This document shows positions 2,217 to 23,906 of a stretch of DNA of 24,845 bases, in pieces. The stretch covers positions 1 to 24,845 of the IMG/VR virus record IMGVR_UViG_3300007509_000059; one strand, 5' to 3'. The stretch is from a virus. The translations under genes and the position numbers were made by a program. Position 1 is the first letter of the stretch; each line of letters starts with the position of its first letter. Below the pieces are notes generated by a model. It made no database searches. It had not been told where the DNA came from and worked only from the letters and a program-made list of their open reading frames with translations.

Positions 2217-3812
2217 ATGCCACCTCTGAACAAACAGAAACAAGTCGCAGAGATTGTAAAGTGCGGGAAAGATCCGTCTTATTTCATCAATCGCTATGTC
2301 CAAATTCAGCATCCTATTCGTGGTCGAATCCCTTTTCATACATTCCCATTTCAGGATGATTGTCTAGGGTACTTTAACGATCATCGTTATAGTGTTGTTG
2401 TAAAGTCTAGACAGCTTGGACTATCAACATTAACTGCTGCGTACGCAGTGTGGATGACTTTATTTCGTAAAGATAAGACAGTGCTTGTTATCGCAACAAA
2501 GCTAGCAGTGGCTCAAAACTTTATTAAGAAAGTAAAGATTGCTCTCTCTGGTATTCCTAAGTGGATGTGGATAACTGAAATCACTGCCAAGAATACTCAG
2601 GCTATTGAATTTTCAAATGGTTCCGCAATAAAGGCTGTTCCAACCTCTGATGACGCCGGCCGTTCCGAGGCGTTAAGTTTATTGATCGTTGACGAGGCAG
2701 CATTCATTCGTAACTTTGATGAGCTGTGGAAGGGGCTATACCCAACCCTATCGACGGGTGGTAGGGCGATTGTTGTTAGCACCCCCAACGGTACGGGTGG
2801 TCAATATTACGACATATACCACGATGCTGTGAATGGTGATAATGAATTCAAGGCCATAAAGCTTCCTTGGGATGTACACCCCGAGAGAGACGACACATGG
2901 TTTCAAAATGAGAGTAAGAACTTAAATCGTCAACAAATAGCACAAGAGCTGCTGTGCGATTTCCAGGCATCTGGAGAAACGTTTTTATCTTCCGAAGATA
3001 TAGAAAAATTAAGAATGCAGATTCGCCATCCGCTTGAAAAATGGGGTCCAGATAATGGAGTCTGGGTCTGGAAGTACGCGCTTGAGGGTCATTCCTATAT
3101 AATTTCTGCAGATGTTGCTAGGGGAGATGGGGGAGATTATTCTGCATTTCATGTAATAGACACAACGATTTCTGAAGTGGTGGTAGAGTTTAAGGGGCGT
3201 GTACCTCCAGACCAATTAGCTTTTTTATTGATGGAAGCCTCTAAGAGATATGACGATGCTATGATATGTCCTGAAAGTAATACGTACGGCTACGCGGTAC
3301 TTATGAAGCTACAAGAGCTAGGGTGCCGGCAGATATATTTCAAGAAAGAGAAAGACAAATTTAACGTCTTATACGGAAATGGGTCTATCGGGAAAGCCGG
3401 CTTCTCCACACAAGGAACAAGCAGAGCTCAGATTCTTACAAAGTTAGAAGAAGTGCTTCGTAATAATAAGGTATCGATTTATTCTTCTCGATTTGCAGAT
3501 GAAATGAAGACGTTTATCTGGACCAACAATAAGGCTCAAGCTCAACGTGGAAAAAATGACGACTTAGTAATGTCTTTAGCTATTGGGCTCTGGCTATATG
3601 ATGCGAAATCAAGTGGTAAGGTAAAGAAGGTAGATATGAACGCAGCAATGTTGGCTGGCTTCGCTATGAATAAAAAAAATGAGGCCCCGCAAAGGGACAT
3701 GTCTCCCTTTAATCAACAGGTGGGTATATTTACTGCAAGAGGAATGCCAATCTCTATGGACGATACCCATCCCTTGATATCAGGCAGCGCAGATTTTAAG
3801 TGGTTGCTTTAA
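2217..3812 (+). CDS. 17: Terminase large subunit, gp17-like
   Basis: This is the DNA-packaging motor and headful nuclease (531 aa; T4 gp17 is about 610). The N-terminal ATPase has a P-loop-like KSRQLGLST at residues 63-71, where the usual GK(T/S) lysine is Leu and a Lys sits at the start of the loop. Walker B is LLIVDEAA (155-162, catalytic pair D159/E160). The coupling motif STPNGTGG is at 188-195. The C-terminal RNase H-like nuclease shows acidic residues in ISADVARGDGGD (D299), CPESN (E353) and KNDDLVMSLA (D448/D449). It is complete, with a start 6 nt after the previous stop and a weak TTGAGG ribosome-binding site. The portal gene follows after 27 nt. No recognisable small terminase is present in the window. 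Confidence 0.97.
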   Translation: MPPLNKQKQVAEIVKCGKDPSYFINRYVQIQHPIRGRIPFHTFPFQDDCLGYFNDHRYSVVVKSRQLGLSTLTAAYAVWMTLFRKDKTVLVIATKLAVAQNFIKKVKIALSGIPKWMWITEITAKNTQAIEFSNGSAIKAVPTSDDAGRSEALSLLIVDEAAFIRNFDELWKGLYPTLSTGGRAIVVSTPNGTGGQYYDIYHDAVNGDNEFKAIKLPWDVHPERDDTWFQNESKNLNRQQIAQELLCDFQASGETFLSSEDIEKLRMQIRHPLEKWGPDNGVWVWKYALEGHSYIISADVARGDGGDYSAFHVIDTTISEVVVEFKGRVPPDQLAFLLMEASKRYDDAMICPESNTYGYAVLMKLQELGCRQIYFKKEKDKFNVLYGNGSIGKAGFSTQGTSRAQILTKLEEVLRNNKVSIYSSRFADEMKTFIWTNNKAQAQRGKNDDLVMSLAIGLWLYDAKSSGKVKKVDMNAAMLAGFAMNKKNEAPQRDMSPFNQQVGIFTARGMPISMDDTHPLISGSADFKWLL

Positions 3813-3839: not shown

Positions 3840-5789
3840 ATGGCAGATAAGGGAAATATATTTCAAAGACTTACGAAGCTGTTCCGTTCAGGACCGGTCG
3901 TAAAAAGAAGGGTACGTCAAAATGTACCAGGTCTTTCGTCTTCGGCTGCAGAGGTTTTTAAGCGCGCCCATAATGATGTGTACAATAATACGCTCAGCGC
4001 GTATGGTTCATTTGACAGGATGTCAAGATATTCTGACTTTGCTGAGATGGAGGCCACGCCAGAAATCGCTTCTGCTTTAGACATATACGCTGAAGAAACT
4101 GTCAGTCCCGATGAACATGGGAAAGTACTACATATTTTTTGCGAAGATGAACTAAAGAAAGAGTTGCTAGAAACGCTTTTTTATGATACCCTGAACCTTG
4201 AGTTTAACTTGGTCATGTGGGTTCGTAATTTGTGCAAGTACGGTGATTTCTTTTTGTTCAATGATGTCGATCCGAAGTTTGGGATTGTGAATGCTTATCC
4301 CATCCCAATCGCTGAAATGGAAAGAGAAGAGGGTTTCGATCCAGAGAATCCTGGTGCTGTACGCTTTCGGTGGCTAACACAGGGAAATACGGTGCTAGAG
4401 AATTGGCAGGTATCTCACTTTCGTCTTCTGGGTAATGATGCATTTCTTCCATACGGATCATCTGTCCTCGAGTCAGCAAGACGCATTTGGCGTCAGTTGA
4501 TTCTTATTGAAGATGCAATGCTGGTTTACCGAGTCATCAGAGCTCCAGAGCGTAGAGTGTTCTATATTGACGTAGGAAATGTGGCTCCTGAAGATGTCAC
4601 AGATTATCTTGAGCAAGCAACAAGCACGTTAAAGAGATCCCAGGTGGTTGATAAGACATCAGGGAAGGTCGATCTACGTTACAACCCATTATCAGTTGAC
4701 GAAGATTATTTTATCCCAGTCCGTGGTGGAGATTCAGGCACCAAGATTGATACCCTCGCAGGAGGTCAGAACACGGCGGCGATTGAAGACGTCGAATATA
4801 TTCAAAAGAAATTATTCGCTGCTCTGAAGATCCCAAGAGCGTATCTTGGTTACGATGAAGAGATTGGTGCAAAAGCCACCTTAGCTCAAGAAGATATACG
4901 CTTTAGCCGCACGATTCAAAGAATTCAAAAGACAGTGATCGCTGAGCTTAACAAAATCGCGATGATCCACCTTTATGTGCACGGTTATGATGCTGAAGAC
5001 TTAATAGATTTTGAGCTGAAACTTTCTAATCCATCTTCTATTGCACAGATGCAGAAGCTGGAATTAATATCTCAGCGCTTTGATATTGCAGGTAAAGTAC
5101 CCGAGGGAATGTTAGATCGTAGGTGGGTTCAAAAGCAGGTTCTTGGACTAACTGATAAGCAGATCGAAGATATCCATGAAGGGAAGATGAAAGATAAGAT
5201 CGAAGATGCTGAAGTGGAGGGTGCCGGAGCTGAAGAAGGCGGCGAAGAAGGTGGTGGCGAAGAAGCCGGCGGCGGCGGCCTATTCTCTGCTGACGTTCCA
5301 GAAGATGGTCAACTATTAACAGCACTTCCCGCGACTGGAGACAGAATAAAAGATGACTCGGATGAAGATGAAGAAGATGACATTATTGACATTTCAAAAT
5401 TATCGATCGACGATCCAGACGCCCCGTTGAAAGCACAGTCAGCGGTTAGGAATCAAAGCAAGAAATCTTCTGGTGGTCCACTTAAAACTCATATGCCAGA
5501 CTTTCGTACGATGGTCACTCATAAGCGACCACAAGACTCTATGAGAAAACCTTTTGGAGATGATTACCTTCGCACAACGTTCGAGGGGACAGAATGGGAA
5601 GACCGGAATACTTATAAAAAGAATGTCGGCGTTAAGCCGGTAATCACGCCAGAATTAAGGGGAACATTTAGATCATTATCTTCAATCCTTGCTCCTGAAG
5701 GCGGAGTGCTTCTTAGCGAAGCGGGTTTAAGTGGGGAAGACAATTTCGACCTCGATGAATACGATGCCGGAGAAATAGATGAAAGTTAA
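3840..5789 (+). CDS. 20: Portal vertex protein, gp20-like
   Basis: This forms the dodecameric portal ring at the unique head vertex, where prohead assembly starts and DNA enters. The core is classical gp20: a basic N-terminus, SRYSDFAEMEATPEI around residues 60-75, the clip/stem region YRVIRAPERRVFYID (about 229-243), and the wing region KIPRAYLGYDEE (about 330). The core ends near residue 455. It is followed by a Gly/Glu-rich low-complexity linker (about 455-480), an acidic stretch, and a further roughly 120 residues that include DDYLRTTFEGTEW. The total of 649 aa is longer than T4 gp20 (about 524), and the excess is this C-terminal extension. It starts after GGTGAGG. Its stop overlaps the next gene by 11 nt. 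Confidence 0.96.
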   Translation: MADKGNIFQRLTKLFRSGPVVKRRVRQNVPGLSSSAAEVFKRAHNDVYNNTLSAYGSFDRMSRYSDFAEMEATPEIASALDIYAEETVSPDEHGKVLHIFCEDELKKELLETLFYDTLNLEFNLVMWVRNLCKYGDFFLFNDVDPKFGIVNAYPIPIAEMEREEGFDPENPGAVRFRWLTQGNTVLENWQVSHFRLLGNDAFLPYGSSVLESARRIWRQLILIEDAMLVYRVIRAPERRVFYIDVGNVAPEDVTDYLEQATSTLKRSQVVDKTSGKVDLRYNPLSVDEDYFIPVRGGDSGTKIDTLAGGQNTAAIEDVEYIQKKLFAALKIPRAYLGYDEEIGAKATLAQEDIRFSRTIQRIQKTVIAELNKIAMIHLYVHGYDAEDLIDFELKLSNPSSIAQMQKLELISQRFDIAGKVPEGMLDRRWVQKQVLGLTDKQIEDIHEGKMKDKIEDAEVEGAGAEEGGEEGGGEEAGGGGLFSADVPEDGQLLTALPATGDRIKDDSDEDEEDDIIDISKLSIDDPDAPLKAQSAVRNQSKKSSGGPLKTHMPDFRTMVTHKRPQDSMRKPFGDDYLRTTFEGTEWEDRNTYKKNVGVKPVITPELRGTFRSLSSILAPEGGVLLSEAGLSGEDNFDLDEYDAGEIDES

Positions 5790-6630
5790 ACACAATAAAA
5801 AAAGAAATGTCGGTCTTATTTTCGCTCAGCTGTCTCAATATATTTCTGAGGCTCTAGTGGAGGGTAAAGTAAGAAAAGCAAAGAAAGCGATTGATGTACT
5901 TCAGCTCCATTTTCGTCCAGGAACAGAGCTGTTTCGAGAGTTTCGTTTGTTTCGTGCGATGATGGTAACAGAAGTTCCATCATCTGCTTTGGCGTCTTCA
6001 ATTATTTCAGAAGCCAAACAAGCTGCAAGAAATTTGGACGTAAAGATTCTAACACAACAAAAGTCAGCGCTTATTAAGGACATCAATTATATTTTAGGCG
6101 AAGGAGATTTCTATAATAGGCGTGTCCCCGACTACAAAGAGTTTGCGACTGTGCAAACTCTTTTGTCTCAATGGCGTTCATCTTCTCCCGATCTCGTAGT
6201 TTCTTCTCGGTTTGAGGGCGAATTACACACATATCTTTTGAAAGAAAAAAGTAACGCTCATATCGAAGAGTTGAAGACTCCATCTGCAAGTCACTTAGTT
6301 TTAGAAATAATGCATAAGAAGATTGAGGAAAAATTTGGGGACTCGTTTTCGCCTAATCAAGTGGTGCTGTTAAGAGAGTACGTTTTTTCTGAAGAAAACG
6401 ATCAGCAATTCAAAAATCATTTACAAAAAATTAAGGGGGACACATCGAGGTCCCTAAATGAATTTTCTTTGATCTGCGAAAATAGTGTATTATCAAATCA
6501 GGTGGAGAAAGTTAAAGAGCAGGTAGCACACTTAGATGTGGATAGATTTGATGATGATTCGATTTCTAAATACTTAACCCTAATGAAGCTCACGGAAGAG
6601 CTGACCTCTGGAGAAGAATTAAATGTCTGA
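5779..6630 (+). CDS. Conserved T4-like phage protein between portal and protease (283 aa)
   Basis: Function is unknown. The protein of 283 residues is mostly helical and charged. It has an N-terminal basic patch, a segment RPGTELFREFRLFRAM (about residues 46-61), and a middle segment ATVQTLLSQWR (about 123-133). I recall similar proteins at this exact locus, between gp20 and gp21, in T4-like cyanophages and related marine phages; none has a firm function to my knowledge. Its start lies inside the end of the portal gene (11-nt overlap) and its stop overlaps the protease start by 8 nt, so all three are probably translationally coupled. Position suggests a head-assembly role. In T4 this interval holds the small core genes 67 and 68, but I see no sequence match to them. 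Confidence 0.85.
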   Translation: MKVKHNKKRNVGLIFAQLSQYISEALVEGKVRKAKKAIDVLQLHFRPGTELFREFRLFRAMMVTEVPSSALASSIISEAKQAARNLDVKILTQQKSALIKDINYILGEGDFYNRRVPDYKEFATVQTLLSQWRSSSPDLVVSSRFEGELHTYLLKEKSNAHIEELKTPSASHLVLEIMHKKIEEKFGDSFSPNQVVLLREYVFSEENDQQFKNHLQKIKGDTSRSLNEFSLICENSVLSNQVEKVKEQVAHLDVDRFDDDSISKYLTLMKLTEELTSGEELNV

Positions 6631-7243
6631 TCTAAAATTACTAACAGAATGGTCGCCCTGGCAATACTCTAAGGAGATGATCGAAGAAGCAAAAGCAGAA
6701 AATGGCGGAAAGCTTCTTATGAAGGGTGTATTGCAAAAAGCTGATACGCTTAATCAAAATGGGCGTGTTTACCCACGATCTATTCTAGATAGAGAGATTC
6801 GAAATTATCAAAAGTTTATTGCTGAAAATCGTGCTCTCGGAGAATGTGATCATCCTGACAGCTCAGTAGTTGAGTTGAAGAACGCTTCTCATATTATACG
6901 GGAAGCTTATATGGATGGAGATGTAGTATACGGGACAGTAGAGTTGTTAGATACTCCCGCAGGACAGATTCTTCAGAGTCTGGTTGAGGCCGGCGTAACT
7001 CTTGGCATTTCTTCCAGAGGTGTTGGATCGACAAAGCGTTCTGGTGATACAGATGTTGTACAAGATGATTTCCAGCTTATATGCTGGGATTTTGTTTCAG
7101 AGCCTTCCACACCCGGAGCATTCATGATGAGAGAGGGTGTGTCGATTAGAGAAAAAGACCTCAATAAAGTTTTTAACAAATCAGATCGAATCCATCGCTT
7201 GTTCAATGAAGTGCTGGATTGGGAAGAAGGAGAATCAGAATGA
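6623..7243 (+). CDS. 21: Prohead core protease, gp21-like
   Basis: This is the serine protease of the prohead core that digests scaffold and trims the capsid protein after shell assembly, and it is normally inactivated by self-cleavage. It has 206 aa, close to T4 gp21 (about 212). The catalytic signatures are clear: His77 in GECDHPD and a serine (S130 or S131) in LGISSRGVGS, the usual His/Ser arrangement of herpes/T4-type maturation proteases. A further conserved stretch, CWDFVSEPSTPGAFM, is at 154-168. The start overlaps the previous gene by 8 nt, with GGAGAAG upstream, and its TGA overlaps the next ATG (ATGA). The family cleaves after (L/I)-x-E; candidate substrates in this window include the scaffold, the capsid protein and small proteins at 7773 and 8268. 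Confidence 0.96.
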   Translation: MSDLKLLTEWSPWQYSKEMIEEAKAENGGKLLMKGVLQKADTLNQNGRVYPRSILDREIRNYQKFIAENRALGECDHPDSSVVELKNASHIIREAYMDGDVVYGTVELLDTPAGQILQSLVEAGVTLGISSRGVGSTKRSGDTDVVQDDFQLICWDFVSEPSTPGAFMMREGVSIREKDLNKVFNKSDRIHRLFNEVLDWEEGESE

Positions 7244-9645: not shown

Positions 9646-9723
9646 ATAGAAAACTACAAATGGTAAGTAATCTCTATTTGTTCGGGATATTTAAGTCTAA
9701 GTGCACACAAATAAGGTGGATTC

Positions 9724-11172
9724 ATGTCGACAAATCTTTATAGAGAGGCGATAGCAGAGGCACAGCAATTAAAATTGCTGGCTGAGCAGAATGCCAAGAA
9801 TAAAATCATCGAAGCACTCACCCCCCGAATTCAGGCGATGGTTGAGTCTCAATTATTATCAGAACAGGAAGAGATTCAGCTCGTTGATGTTGAAGCCCCT
9901 GTAGCAGAACTAGTTCCAGATGAGCTACTAGATGACGAAGCGGATGAAGAAGCTTCCATTATAGTTAACGCGCAAGGTGATGTGAACCTATCTGTGTCTG
10001 AAAGTCTTCCTAAAATTAGGAAAAACCTGAGAAATCAAAAAGCTCAGATTACAAACTCTGTGTCTTCCGATCAAAATAAGCTAGCCGAAAGAATTGCAAA
10101 GCTTCGAGGGAAGGTTAGGAGAATGGATGCCTTGCTGTCAGAAGTAAATGCGAGCGCATTATCGAGGCAGCAAAAGTCTGTAATTAAAAAGTCATATCAA
10201 AAACTTCTAGGCGAAGCCATAACTTTACGTTCAGAGGTAATAGTTAGTTCTAGCAACAAGAGTCAGGGCAACCGCTTAGCGATATTCGAAACATTAAAGG
10301 AGATGAATATAATGACTACCAAACGCAGCCGCGCCATCTTCAACCAACTTTTTGAAGCTGGCTACGGCGAATTAGATGAAATGGAATTGGTCCTCACCGA
10401 CGACGACCTAGAAGCCCTTGGTGTTGAAGATGCCGAGGCCGCTGATGTTGAGGCCTTAGATATTGAGGTCGCAAGTGATCTTGGCGAGGAAGAAGCTGAA
10501 GGCGAGGGAGAAGAGGAAGAAGTTGCTCTTGACCTTGGTGAGGTTTTTGAGATTGACCCCCGTATGTTAAAAATGGAGCTTCGCAAGCTTCGTAGAATGC
10601 GTGAAGCAACCGAGGGTAGCACGGAAGCTACCGATCAGGCCGATGCGTTTGGTGGTGGAGAAGTGGAAGATGAGTCTTTTATCGACGTCGATGAAGAAGA
10701 TCTTCTAAATGCCCTCGCTGACGAACTCGGCGATCCCGGAGTTCCTACTCCAACAGTTGAATCCCGCCGTCGTGCCCGCCGCCGCCGAGTCTCTGAGACC
10801 CGTCGCAGTCGCCGCACTTCAAAAAGAGGCTCCGCTACAGTCCGCGAAAACCGCGCCCTGAAGCAGCAGCTTACTGAAATGAATCTTTTTAACGCAAAAC
10901 TGCTTTATGTGAACAAACTGATGCAAAATCGTAATGTAAGTTCTAAGCAGCAGCGTGCCATAGTCGAGGCTTTAGATAATGCCAAGACAATCCGTGAGGC
11001 AAAGCTGGTATACGAAAGTATTACTCGTTCGCTAAACAAGAAGTCCCTCTCTGAGGGCAAGAGAAGAGTTCTTGGATCTTCTAGCAAGCCGACTCGTAGA
11101 GGTAGCTCTACAGTAAATGAGTCGACACAGACAGATCGTTGGGCGAAGCTCGCTGGTATTACAAACAAATAG
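9724..11172 (+). CDS. 22: Prohead core scaffold protein, gp22-like, with an extra N-terminal domain
   Basis: This is the main scaffold filling the prohead before DNA entry, later digested by gp21. It has 482 aa, much longer than T4 gp22 (about 269). The C-terminal domain (about residues 370-430: LKQQLTEMNLFNAKLLYVNK, then a QQRAIVEAL helix) is the conserved gp22-type part. The middle is very acidic (about 215-345), followed by an Arg-rich patch (about 346-370). The N-terminus MSTNLYREAIAEAQ carries an I-A-E cleavage site like that of T4 gp22 and internal proteins. At residue 197 a second in-frame ATG follows AAAGGAG. Starting there gives 286 aa, about the size of T4 gp22, with its own L-F-E near the N-terminus. 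Arg codons switch at this point from AGA/AGG (7 of 11) to CGT/CGC (24 of 30), suggesting a fusion of two core genes. Confidence 0.88.
   Translation: MSTNLYREAIAEAQQLKLLAEQNAKNKIIEALTPRIQAMVESQLLSEQEEIQLVDVEAPVAELVPDELLDDEADEEASIIVNAQGDVNLSVSESLPKIRKNLRNQKAQITNSVSSDQNKLAERIAKLRGKVRRMDALLSEVNASALSRQQKSVIKKSYQKLLGEAITLRSEVIVSSSNKSQGNRLAIFETLKEMNIMTTKRSRAIFNQLFEAGYGELDEMELVLTDDDLEALGVEDAEAADVEALDIEVASDLGEEEAEGEGEEEEVALDLGEVFEIDPRMLKMELRKLRRMREATEGSTEATDQADAFGGGEVEDESFIDVDEEDLLNALADELGDPGVPTPTVESRRRARRRRVSETRRSRRTSKRGSATVRENRALKQQLTEMNLFNAKLLYVNKLMQNRNVSSKQQRAIVEALDNAKTIREAKLVYESITRSLNKKSLSEGKRRVLGSSSKPTRRGSSTVNESTQTDRWAKLAGITNK
10296..10314 (+). promoter_or_regulatory. Internal ribosome-binding site and in-frame start within the scaffold gene
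   Basis: AAAGGAG at 10296-10302 lies 9 nt before ATG 10312-10314, which is in frame with the scaffold gene (Met197). Another in-frame ATG at 10303 is too close to use this site. The downstream product would be 286 residues beginning MTTKRSRAIFNQLFEAG. Sequence and spacing are as good as those of the annotated genes around it. Use of the site is inferred, not shown. Confidence 0.6.
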
Positions 11173-11202
11173 ACGCTAAATTCTTAAAGGAGAAAAAAGA
11201 AA

Positions 11203-13110
11203 ATGTCCAAGAAGTTTACACTTGACCAACTGACGGAAGGTATTCGTCAGCGTCACCAAGGCGACTCTAACAAGCGCCTGACAGAAAAGTGGAGCAGGAC
11301 TGGTCTTCTTAGAGGTCTCGAGAGCGTCCATCGTGAAAACATGGCAACGTTGCTCGAGAACCAAGCAGGTCAGATCCTACGTGAGCAGAACACCCTTGGT
11401 GGTGGTGGTCTCACACCCGCTGCAAGCTCCGGAGATATCCGGGGTTTTACTAACATCGCTTTCCCCATTGTTCGCCGAGTCTTCGGTGGCCTTGTGGCAA
11501 ACGAGTTGGTTTCCATTCAACCGATGAGCCTACCTTCCGGTCTGCTCTTCTATCTTGACTACACTTACGGTTCAAACGTCGGTGGTACTGTTGACGGTTC
11601 CCTAGGGTCCGCCACCAAGAACATCTACGATGCCGGTCAGTCAATTTATAATAACCCCGCAGGTAAGGGCATTCAGTCTGGTTCACTCGGCGCCGGTGGT
11701 CAGTATGACCTCGCTGGTTCCGGTTATTCCAGAGTCCATACCGGTTCTAATCTCGCACTTGGCACATCTGCCATGTTCGCTCTTGGTACCAATGCTGCAC
11801 AGACTCGTACAACCACCATCAGTTCTGGTGTAGGTTCTACTGGTGCTGACGGCCGGTTCCTACAGTTCGATCCTCAGGTAACGCAGAAGATAGACGATGA
11901 TAGCAATGGCTACTTCTTCTTGACTGTTGACCTTGGTGTGCTTGGTTCAGACTTTGACGTTACAGCTGTTAAGGAAGCTGCGCTTGTATTAACAGGTTCG
12001 TCTCTTAACGCTAGTTCAGTCATGGCGGTTCCTGGTGAGACATTCCAGGGTGGTAAGGGTGTATATAACATCCGTCGTCTTAACCAACTTGTTAAGTCTG
12101 GTTCTGCACTAGGTGCGATTTCACCGGATCCGATGGCAACTGCACAGAAGGCGGGTTCCGCTCTTCTCATGGTTATGTCTGGAACGGCTCTCGCAAGTGG
12201 AGACCTCGCAAGTTTCCGTTTGAGTTATCCCAAGACGAACACACTGAACGTTAACTCTTCCAACGCTGACACTCTTGTTGTCCCCGTTTTTGAGTCTAAC
12301 TTTAGCACTGGTACACCCGCTCCCGCCATTCCTGAGATTGACATTAAGATCGAGGCTATCTCGGTTGTCGCTCAGACTCGGAAGTTGCGTGCACGTTGGT
12401 CCCCAGAACTCGCACAGGATTTGAACGCCTACCACAGCTTGGATGCTGAGGTTGAGCTTACTCAGATTCTCTCTGAGCAGATTGCTCTTGAGATTGACCG
12501 CGAGATCCTGAATGACCTCCTCATGCAGGCTGACACAAACTACTACTGGAGCCGTAAGCCCGGTGACTTCGTTAATAAGAAGTCTGGTGCTTCTGCTGTC
12601 AAGGCCTCCTCCCTCGCGGGTGGTCCAGCCTTTACCGGTACAGTTCGTGAGTGGTACGAGACTCTCGTTGAGACCATCATTGATGTCGCAAATGAGATTC
12701 ACCGCTTGACTCTTCGTGGGTCCGCCAACTTTATCGTCGTTAGCCCCGACGTTGCAACAGTCCTTGAGGCCTCCGTGCTTTACAAGCCTGTTTACAGCAT
12801 CGACGGTGACGGTCAGGTTGCGCCCGGTATGAGTCTTGGTGCCGAGAAGGTTGGTACACTGAGCAACCGTTTCACAGTCTATAAGGATCCCTACTTCCCA
12901 CGCAACAAGATTCTTGTTGGGTACAAGGGCGGTAGCTACCTTGAGACCGGTTACGTATACGCTCCTTACGTGCCACTGATCGTTACGCCTACTATCTTCG
13001 CTCCCGAAGACTTCACACCCCGCAAGGGCGTGATGACTCGGTACGGCAAGAAGATGGTGCGTTCCGACTTCTACGGTACAGTAACGTGCATGGGTATGGA
13101 CGTCATCTAA
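11203..13110 (+). CDS. 23: Major capsid protein, gp23-like
   Basis: This is the HK97-fold shell protein (635 aa; T4 gp23 is 521). The most diagnostic stretch is RKLRARWSPELAQDLNAYHS followed by DAEVELTQILSEQIALEIDRE (about residues 396-436), a gp23 hallmark. The C-terminus has ANFIVVSPDVATVLEA and ends MGMDVI. The N-terminal 60 residues are a charged prohead region, and L-R-E at 59-61 (also L-L-E at 50-52) is the likely gp21 cleavage point, close to where T4 gp23 is cut (after residue 65). A Gly/Ser/Asn-rich insertion around residues 125-225 probably accounts for the extra length. It has an excellent ribosome-binding site (TTAAAGGAG) and codon usage (CGT, GGT, AAC, TTC) typical of very high expression. 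A strong terminator follows 28 nt after the stop. Confidence 0.97.
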   Translation: MSKKFTLDQLTEGIRQRHQGDSNKRLTEKWSRTGLLRGLESVHRENMATLLENQAGQILREQNTLGGGGLTPAASSGDIRGFTNIAFPIVRRVFGGLVANELVSIQPMSLPSGLLFYLDYTYGSNVGGTVDGSLGSATKNIYDAGQSIYNNPAGKGIQSGSLGAGGQYDLAGSGYSRVHTGSNLALGTSAMFALGTNAAQTRTTTISSGVGSTGADGRFLQFDPQVTQKIDDDSNGYFFLTVDLGVLGSDFDVTAVKEAALVLTGSSLNASSVMAVPGETFQGGKGVYNIRRLNQLVKSGSALGAISPDPMATAQKAGSALLMVMSGTALASGDLASFRLSYPKTNTLNVNSSNADTLVVPVFESNFSTGTPAPAIPEIDIKIEAISVVAQTRKLRARWSPELAQDLNAYHSLDAEVELTQILSEQIALEIDREILNDLLMQADTNYYWSRKPGDFVNKKSGASAVKASSLAGGPAFTGTVREWYETLVETIIDVANEIHRLTLRGSANFIVVSPDVATVLEASVLYKPVYSIDGDGQVAPGMSLGAEKVGTLSNRFTVYKDPYFPRNKILVGYKGGSYLETGYVYAPYVPLIVTPTIFAPEDFTPRKGVMTRYGKKMVRSDFYGTVTCMGMDVI

Positions 13111-17541: not shown

Positions 17542-20500
17542 ATGGCAGAGCAAACATTTAGATCCCCAGGTTTTTTCGAGCGTGAAATTGACGCTACAGC
17601 GAGAACAACCGAAATAGTAGGTGTACCAGCAGGTGTTGTTGGTACAGCAGAAAAAGGTCCTGCCTTCGTACCAGTAACGGTAGGGAGCATGACTGACTTC
17701 ATTAACAAGTTTGGTGATATTGATACGAACAGATTCGGTCCATACGCAGTCCAGGCTTTCTTGAGCAACAAGACTGCCCTAACATACATGAGAGTGTTGG
17801 GCGCTGGCGCTAATGAAACAACTACCGATCTTAACAATACCCTCAAGTATGGAACAGTAAAGAACGCAGGGTTTAAGATAGCACCCAAGCTTTCTCAATG
17901 GAACATTGACAAACTTGGAGCAGTTACAGACGGACAATATTCAGATAGTTGTGTCCAATTCCTTGTTGCGAGGCACTACGTATCAGCATCAGCTGACTAT
18001 TCCTTCCCACAGTTCGTGGATAACCCATCATTCAATTCGAGCGGTGGAGACACAGTAAACCTTGTTCGAGCAGTCATGTTCACCGCGTCTGGTAGCCGGA
18101 TGCAGATTATGGATGTACCGAATACTTCGAATACAGCAGAGGCCTGGTCTAACACGCTTGATTCTCTTGCCAGAGTTCAGAGATCTACGAACAACAAGTA
18201 TTTTGGGCTGGTCGTTTCTTCCTCACGAGGCGGAGCTTACACAAACGAAATTAATAGTCTTCCTGGTGTTCGAATCATGACAGCATCGCTTGATCCTTCT
18301 GATGAAGCGTATATTACAAATGTCCTGAATACCGATCCCCTTAAGTTTTATGAGCACCAGCATCTGCTGTATCTTGACTTTGCTGTTGAAGATGAGCTAG
18401 CTAGTATCGATCAAAGTTCAAGTCCGGATGTGTATCCCGTTGGATTACTTTCTGGTTCTACCTCTAATCTGGCGAATGCGCTAGCCGGCGCCGATAGATA
18501 TGCACTATCTTCATTCGGCCGCTTTGACACGAGATACGCCACAGCACGAACACCCCAGATATTCTCGCAGCCTTACGGTGGGCAAGAATACGCTCTTATG
18601 TACTTTGAGTCTCTTTCCGATGGAACATATGGAAATGATAAGGTAAAGATCACCATTGGTAACCTGCGGGCTTCCACGAATGACAATTATCCTTATCCTG
18701 AGTTTGAAGTCCAGGTACGAAGATTTGATGATTCCGACTTACAGCCTCAGGTTTTAGAGACGTATCCCGCGTGTAATCTTGATCCTTCATCCGAGAACTT
18801 CGTTGCAAGAAAAATTGGCGATTACAAAGCTCGTTATAACTTTGACGCTGATAATGACGCTGAAAAGAGAATTGTCGTAACAGGTCGTTATCCCAATCTT
18901 TCAAACTTCGTTAGAGTTGTGATCGCTGATAAGGTCTACAAGCGTGATGTTCCAAAGAACGCATGTCCTTTCGGCTTCAATGGTGTACCAGTTATTAAGA
19001 CAAATGATACCTTGACTGATGGTCTTTCTCGACTTGAGGTTAATGGCGTCATATATGGTAACACAAAAACAACAGACGCCTCTGCTGCTGACCCCAACCC
19101 TGGACGACTTTGGGGTGACGGGGTTCGCTCCCCATTAACGGGATCGATTGTTCCTCCACTGCCGTATCGCTTTAAGCTTACACGTGGAGCTGTAAAGAAC
19201 AATTACTCTGGGTTCAGTGGCGACCCCAGCTCTACGGAAATTGTTGATAAACGATTGAACTGGGGTGTTAAGTGGTCTAGATGTCCAGAGACTGGAAGCA
19301 TGACTAATGCTAATCTTGATGTTAACGCTTCGTCGATCCCTAACCCGTTGATTAAGTCATACGGTAAGTTCCAGGGCATCATGAAGTTGGATACGTTGGT
19401 TTCTGGTTCTGGGGCCGATGCGTTCAATGGTAATAAGTTCACGCTCGCAAGAGTTGCTCTGGCAGAGATTGGCTCTAATGCCGCAACACTTCTCCAATAT
19501 ATAACTGCTTCTGCTACCGATAGCATCAAGGAAGCTTGCTACTTAAGAGAAGCTGTTCCCGATTCTCAGAATTATTCTATTCTAGATCCTGATAAGTCGA
19601 ATTACTATCGCGTTTCACTTGCGACCCTAATTCAGTCTAGCTCGGTTAAGTTCAACAGGTTTACTTCGTATACTGCGTTCAACGTTCCGTTCTACGGCGG
19701 ATTTGATGGTGTGAATATTCTTGATAAAGACATGTACTATATGACAGATAGGGCCAGCTCCACCGACGCTAGCTCTGGTGGTCTTACTGGAAAGGCTTCT
19801 GATGAGTTCAAGGCCTCTACAATCGGAATGGCATCTAACCCAGCTGGTGATGGTCGACTTAACAATAGCATCGCTGCATATCGTAAAGCTGCCGAGATTA
19901 TGACGGACGCTACGACTACTAGAATTAATATTCTTGCGATTCCTGGAATCAGAGATTCATTCGTTACAGATTGGGCGGCTGAGAAGACTAGAGACTATTC
20001 TATGGCGATGTATGTTATGGATATTCCTGCATGGACAGAGAGCGAAACACGCCTCTTCGGTATGGAAGATAGTTCATTGATCGCTAGCGCGTCTTACTCT
20101 GTACCTGATGTTAGAGAAACAGCAGAACAGTTCGAGAGCAGAGTGTTCGACAACAACTACACTGCGACATACTTCCCTGACGTCTTTATTACAGACTCTA
20201 ATACAAGCTCGAAGGTTCAGGTTCCCGCTTCCGTCGCGGTTATGCAGGCGCTTGGATATAACGATAAGGTAGCTTATCCATGGTTCGCACCCGCCGGCTT
20301 CAATCGAGGCGGTCTAGGGATTGTAAGTAATACTGAGGTAAGACTTTCAGCGGCTGACAGAGATGATCTTTATGATGCACGAATTAATCCGATTGCTAAC
20401 TTCTCGGATGGAAGCTTCGTTATCTTTGGTCAGAAGACATGTCAAATGGCGAAGTCTGCTCTTGACAGAGTGAATGTTAGAAGAATGCTACTTGAAGTCA

Positions 20501-20778
20501 AGAGACAAGTTGTGGGCGTTGCAGACAGATTATTGTTTGAGCCCAACACAGATGCTACAAGGGCACGTTTTATCAATCAAGTTACTCCGCTACTTGCCAC
20601 GATCCAATCACAACAAGGGATTGAATCCTTCCAGGTGGTCATGGATGGTTCAAATAATTCAGTGGAAGATGTTGAGAACAATCGCTTGAATGGTCGCATC
20701 GTCGTCGTACCGACAAGAGCAATCGAATTTATTGCGATTGATTTTATCATAACAAACAGCGGCGTATCGTTTGACTAA
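17542..20778 (+). CDS. 18: Tail sheath protein 1, gp18-like (1078 aa)
   Basis: This is the contractile sheath subunit that surrounds the tail tube. The ATG at 17542 is chosen over an upstream GTG (17512) because CAGGAGA precedes it and the resulting N-terminus MAEQTFRSPGFFEREID matches that of its paralogue. The sheath hallmarks are the N-terminal SPGF..REID strand, VPAGVVGTAEKGPAFVPV (about residues 28-45), the core NILAIPGIRDSFVTDW near 795, and the C-terminal domain: AYPWFAPAGFNRGGL, ALDRVNVRRMLLEVKRQV, LLFEPNTDATRARF, DFIITNSG. The protein is about 1.6 times T4 gp18 (659 aa). The extra length lies in the middle, including a beta domain (about 360-460) also present in the paralogue. Confidence 0.96.
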   Translation: MAEQTFRSPGFFEREIDATARTTEIVGVPAGVVGTAEKGPAFVPVTVGSMTDFINKFGDIDTNRFGPYAVQAFLSNKTALTYMRVLGAGANETTTDLNNTLKYGTVKNAGFKIAPKLSQWNIDKLGAVTDGQYSDSCVQFLVARHYVSASADYSFPQFVDNPSFNSSGGDTVNLVRAVMFTASGSRMQIMDVPNTSNTAEAWSNTLDSLARVQRSTNNKYFGLVVSSSRGGAYTNEINSLPGVRIMTASLDPSDEAYITNVLNTDPLKFYEHQHLLYLDFAVEDELASIDQSSSPDVYPVGLLSGSTSNLANALAGADRYALSSFGRFDTRYATARTPQIFSQPYGGQEYALMYFESLSDGTYGNDKVKITIGNLRASTNDNYPYPEFEVQVRRFDDSDLQPQVLETYPACNLDPSSENFVARKIGDYKARYNFDADNDAEKRIVVTGRYPNLSNFVRVVIADKVYKRDVPKNACPFGFNGVPVIKTNDTLTDGLSRLEVNGVIYGNTKTTDASAADPNPGRLWGDGVRSPLTGSIVPPLPYRFKLTRGAVKNNYSGFSGDPSSTEIVDKRLNWGVKWSRCPETGSMTNANLDVNASSIPNPLIKSYGKFQGIMKLDTLVSGSGADAFNGNKFTLARVALAEIGSNAATLLQYITASATDSIKEACYLREAVPDSQNYSILDPDKSNYYRVSLATLIQSSSVKFNRFTSYTAFNVPFYGGFDGVNILDKDMYYMTDRASSTDASSGGLTGKASDEFKASTIGMASNPAGDGRLNNSIAAYRKAAEIMTDATTTRINILAIPGIRDSFVTDWAAEKTRDYSMAMYVMDIPAWTESETRLFGMEDSSLIASASYSVPDVRETAEQFESRVFDNNYTATYFPDVFITDSNTSSKVQVPASVAVMQALGYNDKVAYPWFAPAGFNRGGLGIVSNTEVRLSAADRDDLYDARINPIANFSDGSFVIFGQKTCQMAKSALDRVNVRRMLLEVKRQVVGVADRLLFEPNTDATRARFINQVTPLLATIQSQQGIESFQVVMDGSNNSVEDVENNRLNGRIVVVPTRAIEFIAIDFIITNSGVSFD

Positions 20779-20813: not shown

Positions 20814-23800
20814 ATGGCTGAACTTACATTTAAGAGCCCGGGCGTTTCTACCAGAGAAATAGACCTTTCCGGTCCAACATCAGTGGGACCCTCGGGAACA
20901 CCTGCCGGAGTCATTGGCATGGCTGATCAGGGACGTGCTTTCGTTCCGATTACAATGGCAACTTTTGCCGATTTTATTGCTGAATTCGGCAATACAGACG
21001 GTACAAAATTTGGGCCGATGGCTATGAGGCAATGGCTGACATATGCTCAGGCTGGAACCTACTTGCGTACGCTTGGTATCGGTGACGGTAAGAAGCGTAA
21101 TACAAACGGTTCTGTTACTAATGCCGGCTTCACCGTCGGTCAGCAGCTGCCAAAGGCGAATGGAATCCTTGGACAAAATGCTTTTGCTGGAACAGCACCA
21201 GCGGCGACGCAGAACGGCGGCTTGGGAAGAACTTCGTTCCTCGCGGTTTGTATGGCAGAACAGAACAGTTCGGGCCTCTTCACAAACGCTGGTCTTAAGG
21301 CATCACAACCCGTCCTTCGAGGGGTCCTTATGGCTCCTTCTGGAGTACTACCAGCGTTAAGCGCTTCAAGAGCGACAACAACTGGTTTTCATGGCGGCGG
21401 AAATTTCAGTGGTAATAACACTCCGCTTGGATCTCCTACGGCTCTTAATTACGCTTGCAGAGAATCATTCGGTTCCGCGGCAGGAGACGATGCGGGTTCA
21501 ACTCTGGGTGCTGTTGATATCGCTGGTGGAAAGCAGGAGTTTGTGCTTCTATTAAATGGTCATACTCACACTGATTCATATCCTACAGTAATAACTGCGT
21601 CTTTTGATCCTCTTGCCCCCAACTATTTTGCGAACGTATTAAATACTGATCCGACGTTATCCCAGAAAGCTGGTCACCTTCTATACGCTCACTACGACAT
21701 CTTCCCCAACATGGCAGTCCCGACAGGTTCGGCGCTAATGTCCTACAATTACAACCCCACCGTTAATGGAACTATTGCTGGGAAGAGTATAAAGTATGAA
21801 GATATCGCATTCCTCGTAACTTCGTCAGCAGGACGTGGAGCTGGGTCTGCAACGATCCCTGACTTTGAAGGGTTTAGTGATCGTTTCCGGACTGCTAAGA
21901 CTCCGAAGGTTATATCTCAAGCGTTCGGTGGTAAGCCGAAGGACCTATTTTCTGTGCACTGCCTTGATGATGGTGCGATAGGAAATAAGAGAATTAAGAT
22001 CTCTATTGAGAATATCGTCAAGTCTACCAACATTAACAACAAATTTGGAACGTTCGATCTACTTGTACGTGACTATAACGACACAGACGACCTTCCACAA
22101 GTTATTGAGAAGTTCCCCAAGCTTTCTCTTAATCCTCTAGATGAGAGGTATGTCGCTAGAGTGATCGGTGATTATTATCTTTTCTACGATTTCGACAAGC
22201 GTGCCGGTTCACAGAAGCTCGTTGTTGAGGGATCATACCCCAATAAGTCTAACTACATCCGAATCGATCCAGTTGATGCTCTTGATAAGGGACAGATTCC
22301 AGCGACTGCTCTCCCATGCGGTTTCCGTGGAATTCAACACTTGGTCACATCGGCTTCTGCAATCTTCAAGGTAGACTCTGCGGACTTCGCGGTAGGAATT
22401 GGATCATATCCTTCGCTTGGTATTGTGCAGCCCCCTGTTCCATTCCGTGCTAGCGTTTCTAAGGGTGAAGCACCTAAGAAGAAACTGGCTGGTAATCTTT
22501 ACTGGGGAGTTCAGTTTGAAAAGAAGATGCGCGTCGCAACTCCGAATGAGAGTACAGTGAACGATGCTCAGATGGATTCATTCTCGAAGTACTTCCCCAA
22601 CTATCACCAGACTTATCGTCCTGCGATGGTCGGAGACAATGCTGGAACAGCTGATAGCGGTGGCACCATTCTTGACTCTGATAGATTCAACAACAATAAG
22701 TTTACCTTAGAGAATATCCAGGTTATTACCACCACGTCTGACCAAGCTGATGCGAATCAGTGGGCAGCTGCTACCTACAAGAGAACGGGTGTGGCCGCCA
22801 GCACGATGAATGATATTGACGGAAGCTCTTCGTCTTCTACAAGGTTGCTTTCTGTATCGAAGGACTTCGGTCTATCCTCAGCAAGAAGATTCTTGAAATA
22901 TACGTTTATCGCTCAGGGCGGTTTCGATGGGTTGAATATCCTCGATAAAGAAAAGGCAACAATGTCTTCAACTGCCTGCAAGAGAGAGATGGACGATTCC
23001 AACCAGGGCGAGACAAATGGACCTACAGTTGCAGCGTATCGTAAGGCTCTAGACATCCTTGAAGAGCGCTCAGACGTGAATATCCAGCTTCTTGCTATTC
23101 CAGGTATCCGTCATTCGTCTGTTACTGATTACGCGATTACGACTGTTGAGGATCGCTTTGATGCGATGTATCTAATGGATATTGAAGCGCAGAATAATCT
23201 AGGTAATATTGTGACTGGTTCTTCCGACCTGATTAGCGTGACAAATACTGTGACTGCATTCACGAGTAGAAACTTGGATTCTTCATTCGCAGCAGCGTAC
23301 TTTCCTGATGTACTGATGACAGAGGTTGCAACCGGACAGACTGTTGTTGCACCCCCAAGTGTTGCGGTTCTCGGGGCATTTGGTCTCAATGATCAGGTTG
23401 CGTATCCTTGGTTTGCCCCCGCTGGCTTCACCCGAGGAGCACTAAAGAATGTTACCGAAAGTCAAGTAAAGCTTAATAGGACTAACCTCGACGCTCTTTA
23501 TGATGCTGATATCAATCCTATCACAGCGTTCCCACAATCTAAGGAAGTTATGGTATTCGGCCAGAAAACATTACTCGCCGCGCAGAGCGCGTTGGACCGA
23601 GTTAATGTTCGAAGACTACTCATCGACATTCGTCGTCAGGTAAGAGCGATTGGAAACACATTCCTCTTCGAGCCGAATAGAGAAGCTACCCTAGCAAGAT
23701 TCTCAGCTGCTGTTAATCCAATATTAGGTAGAATTCAGCAGCAGCAGGGTCTTGAAAGATTCAAGGTGCAGATTGATGCAACCACAACCACCCAGGCTGA

Positions 23801-23906
23801 CGTGGAAAATAACACGGTACGAGGTAAGATCTTCTTACAGCCTGTTCGTTCAGTCGAGTTTATATCACTAGATTTTGTGGTAACTAACGCCGGTATGGAC
23901 ATTTAA
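20814..23906 (+). CDS. 18: Tail sheath protein 2, gp18-like paralogue (1030 aa)
   Basis: A second full-length sheath gene directly after the first. It starts MAELTFKSPGVSTREID, parallel to sheath 1, and shares the whole plan: GTPAGVIGMADQGRAFVPI, a middle beta domain with DDLPQVIEKFPKLSLNP and VARVIGDYYLFYDFD, GGFDGLNILDKE, LLAIPGIRHSSVTDY, and the C-terminal AYPWFAPAGFTRGAL, ALDRVNVRRLLIDIRRQV, FLFEPNREATLARF, DFVVTNAG. The C-terminal domains are clearly homologous; the variable middle parts differ in sequence and loop lengths. Both look intact, with no stop, frameshift or missing domain. The ribosome-binding site is ACAGGAGA. The two may co-polymerise, or one may be used in a sub-part of the tail; the sequence does not say which. 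Confidence 0.96.
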   Translation: MAELTFKSPGVSTREIDLSGPTSVGPSGTPAGVIGMADQGRAFVPITMATFADFIAEFGNTDGTKFGPMAMRQWLTYAQAGTYLRTLGIGDGKKRNTNGSVTNAGFTVGQQLPKANGILGQNAFAGTAPAATQNGGLGRTSFLAVCMAEQNSSGLFTNAGLKASQPVLRGVLMAPSGVLPALSASRATTTGFHGGGNFSGNNTPLGSPTALNYACRESFGSAAGDDAGSTLGAVDIAGGKQEFVLLLNGHTHTDSYPTVITASFDPLAPNYFANVLNTDPTLSQKAGHLLYAHYDIFPNMAVPTGSALMSYNYNPTVNGTIAGKSIKYEDIAFLVTSSAGRGAGSATIPDFEGFSDRFRTAKTPKVISQAFGGKPKDLFSVHCLDDGAIGNKRIKISIENIVKSTNINNKFGTFDLLVRDYNDTDDLPQVIEKFPKLSLNPLDERYVARVIGDYYLFYDFDKRAGSQKLVVEGSYPNKSNYIRIDPVDALDKGQIPATALPCGFRGIQHLVTSASAIFKVDSADFAVGIGSYPSLGIVQPPVPFRASVSKGEAPKKKLAGNLYWGVQFEKKMRVATPNESTVNDAQMDSFSKYFPNYHQTYRPAMVGDNAGTADSGGTILDSDRFNNNKFTLENIQVITTTSDQADANQWAAATYKRTGVAASTMNDIDGSSSSSTRLLSVSKDFGLSSARRFLKYTFIAQGGFDGLNILDKEKATMSSTACKREMDDSNQGETNGPTVAAYRKALDILEERSDVNIQLLAIPGIRHSSVTDYAITTVEDRFDAMYLMDIEAQNNLGNIVTGSSDLISVTNTVTAFTSRNLDSSFAAAYFPDVLMTEVATGQTVVAPPSVAVLGAFGLNDQVAYPWFAPAGFTRGALKNVTESQVKLNRTNLDALYDADINPITAFPQSKEVMVFGQKTLLAAQSALDRVNVRRLLIDIRRQVRAIGNTFLFEPNREATLARFSAAVNPILGRIQQQQGLERFKVQIDATTTTQADVENNTVRGKIFLQPVRSVEFISLDFVVTNAGMDI

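Follow-up and report, generated by a model that had tools for sequence, protein, structure and literature searches.

A putative nested scaffold gene with an internal promoter-like box in a clade of T4-like phages

The gene that lies between the prohead protease and the major capsid protein of this phage probably encodes two scaffold proteins in one reading frame: a long form of 482 residues, the positional equivalent of gp22, and a nested 286-residue short form that would be co-transcribed with gp23. We put the probability of this interpretation at about 0.8. A promoter-like box, a ribosome-binding site and a start codon are all conserved inside the gene, and for this reason the phage probably makes both a long and a short scaffold. 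With less assurance, we lean towards the broader proposal that the head core in a marine T4-like clade is assembled from two scaffold isoforms encoded by a single gene. The short isoform and the capsid protein would be transcribed together from a late promoter inside the coding sequence, in a herpesvirus-type nested transcription unit that evolved independently, and the ratio of long to short form could tune the size of the core or head.

Gene organization

The window, by which we mean the whole stretch of DNA analysed, is a viral record of 24,845 bases which carries T4-type head genes in order. The features needed here are as follows (plus strand where marked +).

2217–3812: terminase large subunit, T4-type head gene
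3840–5789: portal, T4-type head gene
6623–7243 (+): gp21-type prohead protease, presumed to cleave at L/I-x-E (Peptidase_S77, E = 5.9e-27)
9687–9693 (+): ATATTTA, gene-start box (putative late promoter −10 box) that precedes the ATG of the long scaffold by 37 nt
9713–9719 (+): AAGGTGG, ribosome-binding site of the long form, from sequence (−7.8 kcal/mol)
9724–11172 (+): long scaffold reading frame, 482 residues, positional equivalent of gp22, between the gp21-type protease and gp23
9751–9759 (+): I-A-E, residues 10–12 of the long form, putative prohead-protease site (Glu at residue 12 in 25 of 39 relatives)
10240–10246 (+): ATAGTTA, internal box, putative promoter for the short scaffold and gp23, 72 nt before Met197
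10296–10302 (+): AAAGGAG, internal ribosome-binding site
10312–11172 (+): nested short scaffold, 286 residues (predicted product)
10348–10356 (+): L-F-E at residues 13–15 of the short form, putative site of prohead-protease cleavage at the end of a targeting-like peptide
11186–11192 (+): AAAGGAG, ribosome-binding site of gp23, from sequence
11203–13110 (+): gp23 major capsid protein (Pfam Gp23, E = 1.3e-75), without an ATANTTA box of its own

Several small reading frames separate the protease gene from the scaffold reading frame, which gp23 adjoins directly. The first-pass annotation had placed an internal start within this frame, and its coordinates are exact: the frame has 482 codons, the AAAGGAG stands at 10296–10302, and the ATG at 10312 is codon 197, with a spacer of 9 nt. 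We refer to the regions before and after this junction as the N part and the C part.

The scaffold role of the product is putative and rests on synteny, as no family model or sequence match labels it a scaffold. A search for protease families within the reading frame likewise returned no match. Comparison with T4 gp22 gave an hhalign probability below 2%, none of 44 members matched phrog_237 and no homology to cyanophage gp22 was detectable; the gp22 proteins of T6 and of cyanophages, used as positive controls, did match phrog_237. The term 'positional equivalent' is used because the gene occupies the position of gp22 but has no sequence or profile link to T4 gp22. AlphaFold models of the two parts are helical and partly confident (pLDDT 72.6 for the N part and 64.7 for the C part), and Foldseek searches of the PDB and BFVD with them returned nothing meaningful.

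We also note that the major capsid protein is 635 residues long and that its Pfam Gp23 match is centred on residues 374–626, which suggests a large N-terminal or inserted region relative to T4 gp23.

The internal ribosome-binding site and start codon

Relatives were collected by a scan of IMG/VR (79 loci) and by a second scan with an alignment of the N part (80 loci). Junctions were dereplicated at 85% DNA identity, giving a set of 39 whose members are less than 85% identical. The internal ATG is kept in all 39, and AAGGAG is found at the identical 9 nt spacing in 36, with GGAG in the remaining three; these counts come from related phages and are not independent, but some of the N parts are only about 28–30% identical. 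Shuffling synonymous codons within each gene gives an expectation of 8.3 for AAGGAG at this site, compared with the 36 observed. Residue 2 of the short form is Ser, Thr or Ala in 38 of the 39 junctions.

The codons of the ribosome-binding site are invariant (AAG in 43/43, GAG in 44/44). Only three of 106 well conserved codon columns are free of synonymous variation, namely these two and the ATA codon of the box described below. With a pairing energy of −10.8 kcal/mol, the internal site is the strongest among 19 gene starts scored in the window; the starts of the long form and of gp23 score −7.8 and −8.7 kcal/mol. Every one of the 36 distinct junction ATGs scores −8.7 kcal/mol or lower, while 1671 other internal ATGs average −3.6. 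A weakened TGGAG replaces AAGGAG in a few relatives (L141, L143–L145 and L156; L155 is cut by the contig end), in which the ATG and the box are kept.

Taken together, the comparison proposed in the first-pass annotation finds both the internal ribosome-binding site and Met197 conserved, and it supports an internal start giving long and short scaffold products in the manner of a nested gene. The same annotation had allowed that an indel might have joined two ordinary adjacent genes. This is ruled out, as is an assembly error, since the same frame is open in independent contigs as well: the N and C parts form a single continuous frame in all intact relatives except one, and frame and start persist in relatives whose N parts fall to about 28% identity. 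The exception (L032) has a frameshift at 6362–6372, real or a sequencing error, which breaks the long frame well before the junction and leaves the short frame, box and ribosome-binding site intact.

Codon usage across the junction

A change in codon usage at the internal start had been described as sharp. The counts on which this description was based are exact: Arg is AGA or AGG in 7 of 11 cases before the junction and in 5 of 30 after it, where CGT or CGC accounts for 24 of 30, and Ile is ATA in 6 of 15 cases before and 1 of 8 after. Taken on its own, this gene shows a significant shift for Arg (Fisher p = 0.0066) but not for Ile ATA (p = 0.35). The shift is real across the relatives, but 'sharp' is too strong for a single gene, as the best change point is shallow (codons 200–222, t = 3.4; permutation mean 2.0, 99.9% level 4.5).

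With the gp23 of the same phage as reference, codons are better adapted after the junction than before it in 38 of 39 relatives, and in all 39 when stratified by amino acid. Adaptation is lowest over the approximately 90 codons before the internal ATG and then rises, not as a perfect step, and the low-adaptation zone overlaps the region that carries the internal signals. Such a rise would fit stronger expression of the C part.

Prohead-protease motifs

In T4, gp21 cleaves after L/I-x-E, and internal proteins carry N-terminal targeting peptides of 10–19 residues which are removed by such cleavage (PMC9026906). The motifs remarked on earlier near each N-terminus of the present gene recur across the relatives. 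The first L/I-x-E of the short product ends at residue 13–16 in 36 of 39, against a background density of 3% per position, and in most relatives the long product has I-A-E ending at residue 12. The fixed distance of the motif from the internal start gives independent support for Met197 as a true N-terminus.

The ATANTTA box

The sequence ATANTTA lies 29–50 nt ahead of the long start in nearly all of 45 representatives. A further copy is found within the gene, at −66 to −84 from the internal ATG, in 35 of 39 junctions, compared with 3.7 expected from synonymous shuffles. Its ATA codon is invariant (38/38). NTT follows in every case, encoding Val, Leu, Phe or Ile, and the codon after that always starts with A, so that the heptamer is kept though the encoded residues vary. 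The four junctions that lack the box at its usual place comprise three (L030, L031 and L128) which retain the internal ribosome-binding site and ATG and one (L039) with a box at −33.

Few gapped 7-mers are as enriched as the box in noncoding sequence before genes. In noncoding stretches upstream of genes 97 copies were observed and 3.3 expected, a 30-fold enrichment, and there is a strand bias of 300 versus 67. A 119 kb relative has 50 copies on the coding strand, 24 of them 12–53 nt before a gene start, and ten on the opposite strand. Within the window the box occurs 18 times on the plus strand and once on the minus strand, in many cases just ahead of genes (for example at 9687, 10240, 14264, 17502, 20780 and 23919, all plus strand), including those for tail sheath and tail tube. 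We name ATANTTA as the likely late-promoter −10 box of this clade, on the evidence of its position. Late promoters of T4 are known to do without a −35 element (PMC2988020), and T6 shows TATAAATA at places that match the ATANTTA boxes of the clade.

As an observation apart from the scaffold, the window contains two long tail sheath genes in tandem (17545–20778 and 20814–23906; 1077 and 1030 residues, both phrog_23), and each has an ATANTTA box ahead of it.

An ATANTTA box of its own is absent ahead of gp23 in 37 of 39 loci, and the internal box would therefore head a unit consisting of the short scaffold and gp23.

Proposed expression and comparison with known systems

We propose that one late transcript starts before 9724 and yields the 482-residue long scaffold. 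A second would start just 3′ of the internal box at 10240–10246, with a leader of approximately 55–60 nt, and would be translated from the AAAGGAG and the ATG at 10312 to give the short scaffold and then gp23. The predicted short form retains the acidic middle and the C-terminal helical domain; the conserved N-terminal helix would belong to the long form only. Both forms would begin with a peptide of 12–15 residues ending in L/I-x-E, at which gp21 would cut. The long form may link the core to the portal or set the size of the core. That the box is a promoter and that both proteins are made is our inference from these signals, and the short form is probably the more abundant of the two.

Short scaffolds that start in the same frame inside a longer, protease-carrying reading frame are familiar from phage lambda (C/Nu3) and phage Mu (I/Z), in which the signal for the short form is translational. 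The present gene differs from these in having no protease domain and in having a conserved promoter-like box. In herpesviruses, the promoter of the short gene UL26.5 lies inside the coding region of the long gene UL26 and the transcripts are 3′-coterminal (PMC2949831). The gene described here resembles that pair in its expression layout, for which no homology is claimed: the nested scaffolds are in frame and share a C-terminus, and the promoter, here putative and read from sequence, lies in the long gene. The unique N-terminal part of UL26 is a protease, whereas here it is a helical scaffold extension and the protease is the separate gene at 6623–7243; in addition, gp23 follows on the same presumed transcript. 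Nested scaffold genes are familiar in cases where a protease forms part of the long product. With the protease in a gene of its own, nesting here separates two scaffold forms only.

The likeness to T4-type gp22 lies in the position between gp21 and gp23 and in the L/I-x-E sites. T6 also has a late-promoter box approximately 35 nt before gp22 and a second one inside gp22. The difference is that the T4-type box is TATAAATA, whereas the box here is ATANTTA and lies in mid-gene, ahead of a nested start. No comparable conserved start site was found in the scaffolds of T6, cyanophages or the outgroup introduced below, and the open-licence literature yielded no report of a nested gp22. The arrangement is a candidate means by which uncultured marine phages could control head size and the stoichiometry of the scaffold, and it offers a testable case in which a putative promoter and a ribosome-binding site are conserved at the DNA level within coding sequence. 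The predicted short protein is one that annotators will miss.

Alternative explanations and origin of the nested gene

Two alternatives accept the internal signals without a short scaffold. The internal box might serve gp23 only, as an intragenic promoter in gp22 of the kind found in T6, where TATAAATA lies inside gp22, 142 nt before gp23; the absence of a box ahead of gp23 in 37 of 39 loci fits this. However, the T6 box is near the 3′ end of gp22 and has no in-frame ribosome-binding site and ATG, and a promoter for gp23 alone leaves unexplained the invariant codons of the ribosome-binding site, the 9 nt spacing, the ATG, the small residue 2 and the distance to L/I-x-E. We regard this explanation as improbable. 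Less probable still is that the AAAGGAG, rather than marking a start, makes ribosomes pause for the sake of co-translational folding. Shine–Dalgarno-like sequences within genes have been discussed as pause sites, but a pause requires neither an exactly spaced ATG nor Ser, Thr or Ala at residue 2, an upstream box or better downstream codon usage.

The remaining alternatives concern origin and turn on the outgroup scaffolds, those of Flavobacterium phage immuto, Microcystis phage Mel-JY01 and loci L071 and L073–L079. Each of these scaffolds is encoded by one gene; its N-terminal helix aligns with the beginning of the N part (hhalign 96%) and its C-terminus with the end of the C part (99.8%). It had been suggested that an ancestral 196-residue core protein was fused to gp22, the internal start being a relic; the size of the C part, the codon shift and the two N-termini with L/I-x-E all speak for this. 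Both ends are nevertheless present in the outgroup single genes, and no separate gene for the N part turned up in the 80 further loci of the scan seeded with it, in every one of which it either shares a frame with the C part or is truncated at a contig end. Nor would a relic preserve synonymous codons and spacing across such divergence. The suggestion thus stands in its internal start with predicted long and short products and falls in its fusion, to which we give marginally less credence than to the gp23 promoter. A tandem duplication within gp22 whose copies then fused, with the start of the second copy retained, is also unlikely, if the least so of these alternatives. Compared as profiles, the N and C parts score 34 against a shuffled maximum of 20, but the probability is only 34% and drops to 4% for the helical segments alone with the outgroup included, and the helix layouts of the two parts differ. 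We therefore rejected duplication as a weak hint which disappears in the segment-limited test.

Returning to the nested scaffold gene, the match of the outgroup genes at both ends implies that the whole reading frame corresponds to an ancestral single scaffold, so the nested unit would have arisen within an expanded middle region of that gene. The nested genes form one clade (support 100/100) apart from the outgroup scaffolds. The immuto and Mel-JY01 genes share the homologous N-terminal helix, the C-terminal domain and the place before gp23, but each is a single short gene of 366–413 residues without a conserved nested start or box.

One relative of the nested scaffold (L173), the sole match in a genome collection, lies on a 108.9 kb contig binned in a Halobacteriovorax MAG; as a pointer to a predatory-bacterium host this is a weak hint, too weak to name the host. 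The scaffold gene of immuto (L081:6089–7330) is annotated 'DNA polymerase phi-like protein' and looks misannotated, and that of Mel-JY01 (L082:7239–8339) is labelled 'hypothetical' and looks unannotated.
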